Assembly (NCBI GenBank): GCA_903847205.1
Contig: CAINDA010000072.1
Span: 1-64,000, forward strand
DNA length: 64,000 nt
Direction: 5' to 3'
Origin: an uncultured Bacteroidota bacterium
GTDB lineage: Bacteria > Bacteroidota > Bacteroidia > 2-12-FULL-35-15
Part shown: positions 35,340 through 57,819 of the stretch, piece by piece
How positions within the stretch are numbered: position 1 is the stretch's first letter
Layout of the letters: every line of letters starts with the position of its first letter
Made by a program: the position numbers and the translations under genes
Notes under the pieces: generated by a model
Told to the model about the DNA's origin: nothing
Seen by the model: only the letters and a program-made list of their open reading frames with translations
Database searches by the model: none

Positions 35340-35864
35340 TTACTCCTGTTCTGCATTTTCAAATTTCACAATATCTGCTGCAAAATCCATGAAAAATTTG
35401 TGTGCCGATGTAAAAACAAAACGATTATCAGAAGTTTTTTCTATAATGTTTCTGCGGTTAAGCGTATTGATAAAGTTTTTCCGTGAGTCAGTATCCTTGA
35501 GCTGCTTGTTTGATAAAATCAAATCGATGTAAGAAGAGTTGGTGAAGTAATTTTCAATTTCTTCCATTTCAAATTCACTGAATTGGATTCTCTCCAAAAA
35601 GTTTTTGCCGTCGCGGTCGAGCTCATAGCTTAATAAGGCAATAAAAATACAAATGTCACGTGAAAGCATTTCATTTGATTCATCAGAAACCAGGTAAATG
35701 AAATCCTGAGTGATTTTTAAATCATAATTAAATGATGATTTAAAAAAATATGTATATGACTGCTCATTATCTTTTAAAACTGCAAAGGTGCGTTCAGTAG
35801 GCAGCACAAATTTACCGCTCATTAAATCTTCTACAATTTGGCGGTGGTGATTAGGAAATTCCAT
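35340..35864 (-). CDS. Condensin MksE/JetB-like KITE subunit
   Basis: The 174-residue protein is predicted to be a tandem winged-helix (KITE) subunit that binds the kleisin of an SMC complex. It begins HHRQIVEDLMSGKFVLPTERTFAVLKDNE, continues YTYFFKSSFNYDLKITQDFIYLV (beta-wing pattern), and has an RDICIFIALLSYELDRDGKNFL helix. This order fits MksE/JetB. It is the third gene of an operon and overlaps the upstream kleisin-like gene by 14 bp, which implies coupled translation. The assignment rests on size, pattern and operon context, since KITE proteins are poorly conserved. Confidence 0.65.
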   Translation of the reverse strand: MEFPNHHRQIVEDLMSGKFVLPTERTFAVLKDNEQSYTYFFKSSFNYDLKITQDFIYLVSDESNEMLSRDICIFIALLSYELDRDGKNFLERIQFSEFEMEEIENYFTNSSYIDLILSNKQLKDTDSRKNFINTLNRRNIIEKTSDNRFVFTSAHKFFMDFAADIVKFENAEQE

Positions 35865-37044
35865 GATTATTAATTGTTATTTTAGGAACTGTTATTGTTA
35901 AATCGTTAATTTTTATTTTGTCAAATTCAGGTTTTATGCCGAAGTCCCGCTCAATGTCCTCATCAAAGGCAAGTGTGGTAAGAGCAAAGAATTTTGAAAT
36001 CTCAACTTTTTTGTATTCTTCCTTTAAAGTTTTATTACACCATTTAAAGAAATTGTCAACAGGCAGATTTGATTTTAATTTCTGAGTAAAAAATTCTTTA
36101 TCAAAAATCCATTTCTCATCCGAATTTTCTTCATCCTCAAAATAAACATCCGCATCATTTTTAAACTGCTCAAAAATTTCGGCAGCATTAAAAAATGTGT
36201 TTTTAGAATAAATATTTGTTCTCTTTCCTTCAAATAATTCAGGAACTTTCTGTTTGTAAGGATTTTTTAAGAAAGTGATCCAGCCTGTTAAAATAATTGA
36301 TTCTGTTCTGATGCGTTCAATCAATGGCAACAGCTCATTGGTTAATATTTTCGACTGGCGCAGCAAATTATCATTCACCTGAATTAGTTGAAAATAGAGC
36401 TTTTCAAATATTACACGCGTTGTTTCATCATCAAATTTTAAGCGGTATTTGTTGGTGTATTCCGATATATCGTATAATTTATTTGCAATTGAAGATGCAT
36501 GATTGATATCCAGAATTTTATTCAAAGGAATGATGTATTCATCAATCCAGCGGGATGCCCGTACAATTTTTTCGCGGTAATCAATTTTTTTAACATTGGC
36601 TTTCAGTTCACGAGTTTCATTCAATAAACTGATGGTGTTTTTTTCTACCATCTCGTAGAATGCCCTTATTTCATTGGCTAATTCGGTTAAGCGCTGATTT
36701 AAAAGCACTTTATCGCCGTTAATGTTTTCTTTTATTTTTCTGAATAATTCGGCAATTGAAACGTGATATTTTTCAATTGTTTCGGGCAGCATTGGTTTAA
36801 ACTCGCTTAAAATAAACTCAATCAGGTTATAATAAACAGTTCGTATTTCGAAATTATCGTTAACCGGACTTAATATTTTATAGTCCAGCAGCTGCGATTT
36901 AATATTGCTGCTGTGTTTTGATGTAATCTGATTCAACGTTTCAAAAGTAATCACACCGCCTTTCGACTGTGTTTCGTACAGTTCATTGATGATATCAAAA
37001 TACTCCAGCAAAAAGCGCAGTATTGTTCTAGGTTCTGCTATCAT
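35851..37044 (-). CDS. Condensin MksF/JetA-like kleisin subunit
   Basis: The 397-residue protein is predicted to bridge the SMC heads. The N-terminal ~90 residues look like a winged helix (ILRFLLEYFDIINELYETQS; TFETLNQITSKHSSNIKSQL). A long helical middle follows (~95-275, coiled-coil-like), and the C-terminal region (~290-397) may be a second winged helix (FFTQKLKSNLPVDNFFKWC). This matches the architecture of MksF and JetA. The gene starts 4 bp after the SMC stop and overlaps the KITE gene. No nuclease motif is present. The kleisin role is inferred mainly from the operon. Confidence 0.6.
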   Translation of the reverse strand: MIAEPRTILRFLLEYFDIINELYETQSKGGVITFETLNQITSKHSSNIKSQLLDYKILSPVNDNFEIRTVYYNLIEFILSEFKPMLPETIEKYHVSIAELFRKIKENINGDKVLLNQRLTELANEIRAFYEMVEKNTISLLNETRELKANVKKIDYREKIVRASRWIDEYIIPLNKILDINHASSIANKLYDISEYTNKYRLKFDDETTRVIFEKLYFQLIQVNDNLLRQSKILTNELLPLIERIRTESIILTGWITFLKNPYKQKVPELFEGKRTNIYSKNTFFNAAEIFEQFKNDADVYFEDEENSDEKWIFDKEFFTQKLKSNLPVDNFFKWCNKTLKEEYKKVEISKFFALTTLAFDEDIERDFGIKPEFDKIKINDLTITVPKITINNHGIS

Positions 37045-37047
37045 CTC

Positions 37048-39735
37048 TTATTTTGTTTTTGCTGCTTTAGTAATGGGCTGCACTGTTCCGTTACGTTCAA
37101 CTATAACAGCATTTTGTTTTTCGTTGATATTTATTTTTCCTTTTGAAGGATAAATAAAATAATATTTATTGAATCCTTCAACCGCATCAGGTGCAGCAAA
37201 AATCGGCAGGAAATTATGATCCTTGCAGAATTTCACAATCTCCGGGCGGTTTTGTTTATCAATGGTTGCAACCTCATCAATAAATAAAGCAATTTTGTTC
37301 TGCTCATCGGTAACAGCAAGTCTGTTGATGATTGACATGATCATCACTAAACGTATCATTCTGTCGGTACCATCTGATTCTACCTGGTTTGCAAGATCCA
37401 CGCGTTTATCGGTTCCTTTGATATGAAGTAATAATTCGATATTAAATAATTCATCAAAACTTACTTTACGGCCGCTATCGAGATAAGTATTTAATACTTT
37501 TAAATTTTCACTTTGGTCAAATTCAAAACTCATCTGACCATTGAACTCCTGGATAGAAGCAATTTTTTTAAGCTCACCGATGATACGTTCGTTATCCAAT
37601 AAATCAATTTTCATTGATTCGATATTGGAGATACGTGTGGAGGAAAGTTTCTCGTTGAATTTTGTATAAACAAACTGTTTGAACTCTTCGTAACGCTTTA
37701 ACAGCGTGTATGCAGGATTTGCAAACTGTGTGGATATACTGGATAATAAACCGTCTATACTGCGTTCCTTATCAGCCAGACAGGCAATTTCATCTTCCAC
37801 AAAATTGATAAATTGTACAATGTCTGCACTGTTGTTGCGCAAGCGGTATTTTAGATTATCAAAAGTGGCATCCTTTTTCACTTTTAATTCTACCCTGTCT
37901 TTCTGATGGATTTGTATTTTAGAAAAAATATAATCCAGGTTGTCGTTGGTTTCGTATTCTGTAGGTTCCAGGTTAATGGACTCTACTTCAATTTTACGTT
38001 CCTTCAATTCCCTCACTCTAAGCTCCAATGCGCGTTTTTCTTCCTGCAGTTTATCAAACATAATCTGCTTCTGCGAAATTTCTTTTACCAATGAACTTAA
38101 AAATTCTTCAAGTTCTTTCTTTTCGTTTGTAAGACTTTTTACATCAGCAGTTATTGCCTTGATATGCTTTTCTAAGGCCGGTTTACTTTCAATGCGTCTT
38201 ACTTTTTCCTTAATTAATTCAATCTCGGTTAAAATTACTTTTAATTTCGAATCAATTTTTTCTTTGTCAACAACAGTTTTTAAAAGCTCTTCAGTCTGCT
38301 TTTTTTCTAACAGAAGCACTTTTAATTCATCTTTTAATTCTTTTACCGATTTAAATTCTTTTAGAGTGATGCCTTTTGTAATATCAATTTCGCCGTCAAA
38401 AATGGCAAGCAGTTTTGCGGATATTTTTTGAATAGGCTTTTTAATCTGTTTGCTTGGCAGGCTGGTAACCTGTTCTGACAAAACAGAATTTAAGAGCTGT
38501 TTCACTTCTTCGTTATCCGAAATTTTATGAATCAGTAAATTATTATAATTTTCAACTTGATTTTCGAGAGAGGCAATCTGGTAATTTAACTTATCAATAC
38601 GAAGTTCCAGCTGTTTACTGGAAAGCTTTTGAATTTCAATAGTAGTGAAGCGCGTTTCAATTTCCTTGCGGTCTTTATCCAGATTACGAAGCGATTCTTT
38701 TAAAAAATCAACTGATTCATATTTGTGGATTTCGTCCAATTCGTTTTGCTTTTCAGAAAGCAGATTGGTTTTATTTTTAATATCGGCATTTTTTTCACCG
38801 ATGTAGGATGCATAATTTAATTCTTTGGGTTTTAAAATTTCATTGATTTCATTATGCACTGCTGCAATATGCCTTCCTCTTTCGATGGATGAGATTTCTA
38901 ATTCAGGGATAGCAGCTGTGTATGAGCTGTTGAAAGCAGAAATCAACTCGCTTACTATTTTTGTTTTTGAATTGTATAACTTCACTAACTCGCGAAACTC
39001 CAGAAAATCAGTACGTACAGACTTGATGCTTTTAATTTCTTCGTTAATGCGCAATAAATCGGTTATGTCTTTTTTGTTTTTCTGAGAGAAGTTTAAACTT
39101 TCATTTTCGCGGTTATCGGCAATAATCAAGGACTCCTTAAGAGTTTTGTTGGTAATCAGTTTTGAGTTGATCAGGTAACGGTATACTTTAGAAAAGTTGT
39201 TGCTCAAACCATCTGCTTTTACTGTGTCTTCAAGCCATACAACAGCATTGTTTTTTGTTCCGCGGTGATATACCAGATTAAATACATCTGACTTAGTAGC
39301 AAATTTGCTGTGAATAATTCCTTTTGCATCAAGCTTTGCAAGCGCTTCATCAAAATTAAGGAGACGCTGATGCGCACCTTCGTTTTCGAAAAAATACTCT
39401 TCGTTATACTCGCTGTCTATTTTATAATATTCCAACTCCCCGTCCGTATTGCGTTTCACAAGGATGCAGTAGTAACCTAATTTATTTATCTCAAACACTA
39501 AAAAACTTTTGTTATGAGTAGGGAAGTAGTGGTGGATAGTTTCTTTATCGCCTTTACGCTGACCGCTGAATGACATTTTTTGTCCGTCAACAACAAACAA
39601 AAAGTTTAAGGCGTAAATCAGCGTGCTTTTGCCGATGTTATTCGGCCCTACTAACTGCATTGAATCGCAGTTGTCCAGCTTCATTTCGGCTTTACCGTAG
39701 CCTTTTGAGTTAATAAGAGAAATTCTTGTAAGCAT
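37048..39735 (-). CDS. MksB/JetC-like SMC ATPase
   Basis: The 895-residue SMC-type ATPase would drive DNA loop extrusion or condensation. Walker A is GPNNIGKST (residues 30-38). Two long coiled-coil arms (~200-400 and ~450-770) surround a short hinge-like region. The C-terminal head has an ESDGTDRMIRLVMIMSI signature-like helix (from residue 786) and Walker B IALFIDE (815-821) with the catalytic Glu821. A FLPIFAAPDA strand, equivalent to the H/D-loop region, follows. The arms are much shorter than in canonical SMC (~1150-1200 residues), as in MksB. It is the first gene of the operon, with a TATATTTG element 30 bases upstream. RecN/SbcC-like identity is less likely because of the two partner genes. 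Confidence 0.75.
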   Translation of the reverse strand: MLTRISLINSKGYGKAEMKLDNCDSMQLVGPNNIGKSTLIYALNFLFVVDGQKMSFSGQRKGDKETIHHYFPTHNKSFLVFEINKLGYYCILVKRNTDGELEYYKIDSEYNEEYFFENEGAHQRLLNFDEALAKLDAKGIIHSKFATKSDVFNLVYHRGTKNNAVVWLEDTVKADGLSNNFSKVYRYLINSKLITNKTLKESLIIADNRENESLNFSQKNKKDITDLLRINEEIKSIKSVRTDFLEFRELVKLYNSKTKIVSELISAFNSSYTAAIPELEISSIERGRHIAAVHNEINEILKPKELNYASYIGEKNADIKNKTNLLSEKQNELDEIHKYESVDFLKESLRNLDKDRKEIETRFTTIEIQKLSSKQLELRIDKLNYQIASLENQVENYNNLLIHKISDNEEVKQLLNSVLSEQVTSLPSKQIKKPIQKISAKLLAIFDGEIDITKGITLKEFKSVKELKDELKVLLLEKKQTEELLKTVVDKEKIDSKLKVILTEIELIKEKVRRIESKPALEKHIKAITADVKSLTNEKKELEEFLSSLVKEISQKQIMFDKLQEEKRALELRVRELKERKIEVESINLEPTEYETNDNLDYIFSKIQIHQKDRVELKVKKDATFDNLKYRLRNNSADIVQFINFVEDEIACLADKERSIDGLLSSISTQFANPAYTLLKRYEEFKQFVYTKFNEKLSSTRISNIESMKIDLLDNERIIGELKKIASIQEFNGQMSFEFDQSENLKVLNTYLDSGRKVSFDELFNIELLLHIKGTDKRVDLANQVESDGTDRMIRLVMIMSIINRLAVTDEQNKIALFIDEVATIDKQNRPEIVKFCKDHNFLPIFAAPDAVEGFNKYYFIYPSKGKININEKQNAVIVERNGTVQPITKAAKTK

Positions 39736-39765
39736 TTTTTCTGAGTTTCAAAATTATTTGGGAAT

Positions 39766-39773
39766 CAAATATA
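39766..39773 (-). promoter_or_regulatory. -7 promoter element TATATTTG for the condensin operon
   Basis: Exact TAnnTTTG match on the - strand, 30 bases before the SMC ATG. It suggests the three genes are transcribed as an independent unit. Confidence 0.5.
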
Positions 39774-56163: not shown

Positions 56164-57819
56164 TCAATTTTTAAGAAGTTCTTTCGCATTGCTTATTGCT
56201 GCTGCAGTGGGCGTTCCAGAGCTCAGCATTTTTGCAATTTCCTGAACCCGCTCTTCTTCGGTAAGTTTTTTGACGGCACTGTAAGTTTTTTTATTTTTTT
56301 CTTCTTTAAAAACAAACAAATGCGACTGTCCTTTTACAGCAATCTGAGGAAGGTGGGTAATAGCAATTACCTGCATAGAATTCGACATCAAATTCATTAT
56401 GTTTCCCACTTTATCAGCTATTTCACCTGAAACACCTGTATCGATTTCATCAAAAATAATAGTTGGAAGAGCTGAGAGCTGAGCAATTAAAGATTTTATG
56501 CTTAGCATAAGGCGGGATAATTCTCCGCCGGAAGCAGCTTTATTTAAATCTTTAAAATCACTGCCTTTGTTGGCCGAGAATAAAAAATTTATTTTATCTG
56601 CACCGTCTGCATTTAAAACTACCGTTTCAATATGTTCCACTTTCAGCTGGGCATGGGGCATTGACAAAGATGACAACAGTGCAGCAATTTCTTTTTCAAT
56701 TTTAGGAATTACTCTTTTTCTGTCAGCCGTAATCTTTTTTGCAAGTGTTATTAAAGATTTTTGAACGCTGCTTAACTCATTTTTTGTTTTCTCAATTTCT
56801 GTTTCAAGTGAGCTGAAATCAAGCAGTTTGTTGCTTAATTCGTTTTTTAAAACAATTAATTCATCAATCTCTTTCACCTGATGTTTCTGCTGTAATCTGT
56901 ATATTGTATCTAATCGGATTGTTAATTCCTCAATACGTTTAGGATCGTACACAATATCCTGCTCAAGGCTTTCAAGCTCATTGCTGATATCTTTCAATTC
57001 AATAAAAGAACTGTTAAGCCTGATACTTAATTCATTTATTTCAGGCTTGTACTTTGCAAAGGAAGCTATCAGTATTTTTATTTCACTCAATGACGAAAGT
57101 AAATTCTGCTCTCCGCCGTTTAAACCGGATGAAGCTTTTGAAAGATTTAGTTTTATTTCTTCAGCATTATTCAGCGTTTCCAGCTCCTGCTCAATCCCTG
57201 CCTGTTCTCCCGATTTTAAATCAGCATCTTCTAATTCATTAAATTGAAATTGAAAATAATCTAATTCTTTTTTTGCCTGCGATTCCTTTAGAAGCAGTTC
57301 ATTTAAAGTTTTTTCCAACCCTTTGAACTGTTTGAAACTGCCTGCATATTCATTTAATGCTACGGCATGATCTGCATACGCATCCACTACTGAAAGTTGA
57401 AACTGGCTTCCATTAAGTGTTAATGTTTCATGCTGTGAGTGAATATCTATAAGACGTTCAGCGAGACTTTTTAATAGGCCGAGCGTAACGGGGGTATCAT
57501 TGATGAATGCACGGGACTTACCTTCTGGATTTATTTCTCTGCGGATAGTTGTAATAACTTCATAATCCAGCTCATTCGCCGAAAAAAAATCTTTTAAAGA
57601 ATATTCTTTGAGAATGAAAGATGCTTCAACAATACACTTACTGTTTTTATCAAGCAGCGCTTGGGTATCAGCTCTGCTTCCTGCAACAAGCCCTAAAGCA
57701 CCCAGTAATATTGATTTACCGGCACCGGTTTCGCCGGTAATAATTGTCAGGCCTTTCGAAAAATCAACTTCGAGTTTATCAATTAAAGCATAATTGCGGA
57801 TGGATAAATGCTGCAGCAT
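56164..57819 (-). CDS. recN: DNA repair protein RecN
   Basis: The 551-residue SMC-like ATPase acts in double-strand break repair. Walker A GETGAGKS is at residues 29-36. Two coiled-coil arms (~150-240 and ~280-380) flank a short tip. The C-terminal head has AASGGELSRLMLSIKSL (signature) and PTIIFDEIDTGVSGEIADKV (Walker B with the D-loop). VIAITHLPQIAVKGQSHLFV is the typical H-loop region. Length and order fit RecN well. It lies downstream of porD in the conserved bamD-rpoZ-coaBC-porD-recN block. Confidence 0.95.
   Translation of the reverse strand: MLQHLSIRNYALIDKLEVDFSKGLTIITGETGAGKSILLGALGLVAGSRADTQALLDKNSKCIVEASFILKEYSLKDFFSANELDYEVITTIRREINPEGKSRAFINDTPVTLGLLKSLAERLIDIHSQHETLTLNGSQFQLSVVDAYADHAVALNEYAGSFKQFKGLEKTLNELLLKESQAKKELDYFQFQFNELEDADLKSGEQAGIEQELETLNNAEEIKLNLSKASSGLNGGEQNLLSSLSEIKILIASFAKYKPEINELSIRLNSSFIELKDISNELESLEQDIVYDPKRIEELTIRLDTIYRLQQKHQVKEIDELIVLKNELSNKLLDFSSLETEIEKTKNELSSVQKSLITLAKKITADRKRVIPKIEKEIAALLSSLSMPHAQLKVEHIETVVLNADGADKINFLFSANKGSDFKDLNKAASGGELSRLMLSIKSLIAQLSALPTIIFDEIDTGVSGEIADKVGNIMNLMSNSMQVIAITHLPQIAVKGQSHLFVFKEEKNKKTYSAVKKLTEEERVQEIAKMLSSGTPTAAAISNAKELLKN

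Follow-up and report, generated by a model that had tools for sequence, protein, structure and literature searches.

In the class of SMC complexes to which MukBEF, MksBEF and Wadjet belong, a kleisin and KITE proteins join ATP-driven SMC dimers, and DNA loops are extruded (PMC10586767, PMC10123090). Wadjet cuts circular DNA only, and the total-extrusion model holds that it does so after the circle has been fully extruded (PMC10586767, PMC10123090). A review regards as unresolved both where Wadjet came from and how it relates to MukBEF and MksBEF (PMC10586767), and a Hi-C study found arm alignment in a Bacteroides in which there is no known condensin (PMC10197239). Here we describe an operon in a 64-kb window (the whole stretch of 64,000 nucleotides that was analysed, from an uncultured Bacteroidota bacterium) that in our judgement probably encodes a MukBEF/JetABC-type condensin, the only one known in a lineage lacking Smc-ScpAB, with a nuclease as an optional component; its chromosome function is inferred.

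The operon shares with MksBEF of the Pseudomonas aeruginosa type an SMC protein, a putative kleisin and a KITE protein, the lack of a nuclease, a match to MksE and an inferred chromosome role. It differs in gene order (smc-kleisin-kite instead of mksF-E-B), in the 895-residue length of its SMC protein, in a kleisin without a detectable sequence match and in having no Smc-ScpAB alongside; mksFEB(G) operons depart from the window's family both in order, which is B-[G]-F-E in the family, and in sequence. Wadjet (JetABCD or MksBEFG) has the same three-subunit core, and relatives of the window's operon carry a TOPRIM JetD-like gene, but the window lacks JetD, the order in the relatives is C-D-A-B, and PADLOC Jet profiles gave only a weak, partial JetC1 match to the SMC protein and no match for the 397- and 174-residue proteins. 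MukBEF of enterobacteria is likewise a nuclease-free condensin in place of Smc-ScpAB, and MukB is the best fold match, whereas its gene order is different, its SMC protein is much longer (MukB, 1,486 residues) and its lineage is independent. The likeness to Smc-ScpAB lies in the presumed cellular role; ScpA and a long canonical Smc were not found in the window's order. Lamassu, which pairs an LmuA effector with an LmuB-like SMC protein, was considered and rejected: the partner here is MksE, and a weak LmuB match was seen only in the SMC protein of one relative (L064).

All three genes lie on the minus strand. The gene for the SMC-type ATPase (MksB/JetC/MukB-like; 37048..39735, read from 39735 to 37048), assigned from its open reading frame, motifs and fold, is followed after a 3-bp gap by the putative kleisin gene (MksF/JetA-like; 35851..37044, 397 residues), for which we rely on a structural model, a weak match to NF040857 and its position in the operon. 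This gene overlaps by 14 bp the KITE (MksE) gene (35340..35864, 174 residues), identified with Pfam PF21980. The gap between smc and the kleisin gene (37045..37047) is the site of a nuclease gene in relatives and is empty here. A -7 promoter element, TATATTTG (39766..39773, minus strand), stands 38 nt upstream of the smc ATG. The TANNTTTG box was present in all 23 of 23 orthologs, at about -34 to -39 and in one case at -22 (alternative start), with a chance expectation of about 0.066 per 120 nt. An earlier note, made from the letters of the window alone, had described three co-directional genes with this gap and overlap and a -7 element of their own, and the open reading frame coordinates and the box agree with it. 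It had also pointed out that the SMC gene comes first, unlike in the known mksF-mksE-mksB order (PMC10123090), and smc-kleisin-kite is indeed the order in all relatives; in nearly all orthologs the gene set is complete, in this order and with the 14-bp overlap. Comparison with the nearest relative gave dN/dS values of 0.022 for smc, 0.049 for the kleisin gene and 0.029 for the kite gene, whereas two neighbouring genes, mtaB and one for a glycosyltransferase, gave 0.035 and 0.094, respectively. The low values (0.02-0.05) indicate three real genes under strong purifying selection. At one locus (L010:3484-8000), 4.5 kb encoding two exported-looking proteins of 318 and 1,149 residues separate smc from the kleisin gene in an otherwise intact operon. 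In one MAG (L029 / L067), the smc open reading frame is in two pieces (520 and 351 residues), owing to either a frameshift or an assembly error.

The 174-residue protein matched Pfam PF21980 MksE at 74.8 bits, far above the cut-off of 27; in control genomes, the family was detected in E. coli and C. glutamicum. On this sequence evidence it is a KITE subunit of the MksE family, as the earlier description of a winged-helix-like, KITE-type protein had proposed. The SMC-type ATPase has a Walker A motif (GPNNIGKST) and a Walker B motif (IALFIDE), and its structural model has a split ABC head, modelled at low confidence, two coiled-coil arms and a small hinge at about residues 405-463. A fold search with this model placed MukB at ranks 1-4 (E 8e-12), Rad50 (ranks 5-6) and condensin next, and JetC after them, and hhalign aligned the N-terminal head with a same-genus MksB (DUF3584) at 98% probability. 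With its head, arms, hinge and MukB/MksB-like fold, the protein is the SMC-like ATPase that an MksBEF complex contains.

Assignment of the 397-residue protein rests on its fold only, because hhalign comparisons with MukF and other Mks kleisins were negative; sequence profiles likewise gave no significant match linking it to known kleisins. Its AlphaFold model (pLDDT 70.8) has a winged helix at both ends, a helical middle and a long neck helix, and a Foldseek search with this model put JetA of E. coli at the top (prob 0.92, E 1e-3), a second JetA next and MukE-MukF seventh. The earlier note had suggested comparing this protein with kleisins by structure, and JetA is indeed the best solved match, at modest confidence. 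Given a medium-confidence model and a modest match, the protein is likely, but not proven, to be a kleisin. Searching the PDB by sequence, with individual proteins as well as with profiles, returned nothing meaningful. The NCBIfam entry NF040857, which weakly matches the putative kleisin and not the SMC protein, is named MksB and is only 412 residues long; the name may be misassigned. Taken together, the MksE match, the MukB/JetC-like SMC protein and the JetA-like kleisin model support the reading in the earlier note of a stand-alone condensin of the Mks class without a nuclease gene.

The complex is a near-constant feature of the window's GTDB order, which consists of one genus: MksE was found in 31 of 36 genomes, and in 25 of the 26 of good quality. 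SMC orthologs within the order are 71-94% identical, and the operon often adjoins mtaB. ScpA was found in none of these 36 genomes, nor did any contain a canonical Smc over the cut-off (best match 50.6 bits, cut-off 567), so that a scan of related genomes for gene order, JetD and a separate SMC-ScpAB, the check foreseen in the earlier note, shows the order kept and detects neither Smc nor ScpA. A second order, reached via the locus L037, has the complex in six of seven genomes at 30% identity; five of its six loci are complete, three-gene operons with a 3-bp gap, and ScpA was not found there either. In a sample of the phylum, ScpA was present in 248 of 297 genomes and the profile of the window's kleisin matched two. 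In a sample of the class (395 genomes), the complex was found in 47-48, one kleisin being a degraded fragment, and ScpA in 81; the two occurred together only in G221, where the operon contains a nuclease gene, against an expected overlap of about ten (Fisher p ~1e-4, shared ancestry ignored). Replacement cannot be concluded merely from the absence of ScpAB, because about 267 of the 395 genomes have neither system; ScpB was not among the survey profiles, and many of the genomes are MAGs. The pattern suggests, without proving it, that the complex has replaced Smc-ScpAB. No homologs were found in a plasmid collection searched with two kleisin queries or in a phage collection searched with the SMC protein.

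The nuclease gene, where present, occupies a fixed place. In the relatives L042, L043/L062, L044, L045, L064, L082 and L090, smc and the kleisin gene are separated by a TOPRIM JetD-like gene of 263-279 codons, and G221, the genome that has ScpA, shows the order smc, JetD-like gene (263 residues), kleisin gene, kite, with products 48, 52 and 58% identical to the window's three proteins. The JetD-like proteins of the relatives have TOPRIM-type motifs in common (VEN...DYD...EQ). That of L082 scores 26.7 with Pfam JetD_C, over the cut-off of 22, and those of L044, L062, L064 and L090 fall below it or match DUF7281 only; against another Mks operon's JetD, profile comparison gave 93-96%. A purpose-built HMM found no TOPRIM/JetD-like gene in the 64-kb window or beside any nuclease-less locus, in line with the earlier remark that none lies on either side of the operon, and the gene is absent from the core loci of the order. 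JetD_C (PF09983) itself gave one match across the order, a negative that we discarded, as G001 contains three JetD-like genes that the same search did not pick up.

A tree built from 55 concatenated rows indicated that the nuclease state has changed at least five times. A topology that unites L082 and L090 in one nuclease-bearing clade was rejected (p-AU 3e-6), and L082 grouped with strong support with L074 and L078, which belong to the same genus and lack the nuclease. The locus is syntenic, with aroC and topA (named from sequence) downstream in all four loci of the genus (L074, L078, L080 and L082). Since the sisters of L082 lack the nuclease at a syntenic locus, the gene was gained or lost in place. 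Between L082 and L090 the JetD-like proteins are 36% identical and the SMC proteins 59%, a mismatch that fits either separate acquisition or fast JetD evolution. We do not assert that the window's operon was derived by nuclease loss, as a loss-only scenario needs 15 losses against five changes under parsimony and JetD has not diverged in step with the SMC protein, a pattern that repeated acquisition would fit. Only for the order reached via L037, which is nested among nuclease-bearing operons, is nuclease loss the simplest reading.

If the operon is a chromosomal condensin, the SMC ATPase, kleisin and KITE proteins would extrude loops of chromosomal DNA, loop extrusion being itself inferred. 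In the Bacteroidota family, with its order smc-(nuclease)-kleisin-kite, the JetD-like TOPRIM nuclease is an optional fourth gene in a fixed slot, and with the slot empty, as in the window, the complex would be expected to organise DNA but not to cut it. A chromosome may be too large for full extrusion, in which case the presence or absence of JetD would be harmless to it, and this would explain why the slot is optional. The direction of nuclease gain or loss, loop extrusion and the chromosome role are all inferred.

The earlier note had left two roles open, chromosome organisation and defence with a nuclease encoded elsewhere. Conservation of the core operon and the lack of detectable Smc and ScpA favour the former. 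Wadjet-like defence against plasmids by a nuclease acting in trans is unlikely, but cannot be excluded, because the JetD_C search is insensitive to the JetD subtype of the relatives and absence from the order is therefore not shown; moreover, among the operon's nearest relatives beyond the order are nuclease-bearing ones (L064, L082, L090 and L042-L045). Against this stand an operon that is near-universal, vertically conserved and syntenic, with its own conserved promoter, the lack of a JetD-like gene in the window or next to nuclease-less loci, and the existence in the same genus of defence copies elsewhere that bring their own JetD-like gene, with a WYL-type regulator in G001 and G002. G001, of the window's genus, has the core operon and three nuclease-bearing systems (L060, L061 and L062), each preceded by a WYL/HTH-type regulator, recognised with Pfam in L062 (over the cut-off) and L061 (just under it) and in L060 by near-identical sequence; the core operon has no such regulator and keeps its own promoter. 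In total, G001 contains four Mks/Wadjet-like operons (L060, L061, L062 and L063).

A chromosome condensin might also block or compact foreign DNA without cutting it. Extrusion of loops on small circles is inherent to the class (PMC10586767) and the nuclease seems to plug into the complex as a module, but there is no direct evidence for such a double role and no sequence feature that would distinguish it, and we give it slightly less credence still than a nuclease in trans. The idea that the genes form a repair ATPase set of the SbcC/Rad50 or RecN type, which the earlier note had named as a refuting outcome, is very unlikely. In its favour are P-loop similarity to SbcC and RecN over 50-69 columns and the place of Rad50 at ranks 5-6 of the fold search. 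Against it, MukB takes ranks 1-4 in that search and JetC follows, the 895-residue protein has no CxxC zinc hook, the operon has no SbcD/Mre11 gene, the partners are MksE and a protein with a JetA-like model, and a separate RecN-like gene is present in the genome (window ~57816..56290). A condensin remains our preferred reading. In the relatives G602 and G584, which lack ScpA, no other complex of this kind was found than one that includes a JetD-like nuclease, apparently intact, and sister species of both have the operon without it, in the case of G602 at the same locus. It is conceivable, though we hold this only tentatively, that one complex both folds the chromosome and cuts small foreign circles, the nuclease being swapped into and out of a standing condensin.

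Several Bacteroidota lineages have a missing condensin, for which the complex is a candidate; it was not seen in the Bacteroides group of the Hi-C study. No published description of this condensin family was found in the literature searched, which did not cover subscription papers or preprints. The nuclease gene comes and goes at a fixed slot, even among members of one genus whose loci are syntenic, and this variable slot links a probable housekeeping machine to Wadjet defence and makes a switch between condensin and defence testable in natural pairs of close relatives. At L080 and L082, both of one genus, parA-parB and other genes (named from sequence) lie upstream of the operon; its position a few genes downstream of parA-parB hints at ParB-linked loading.
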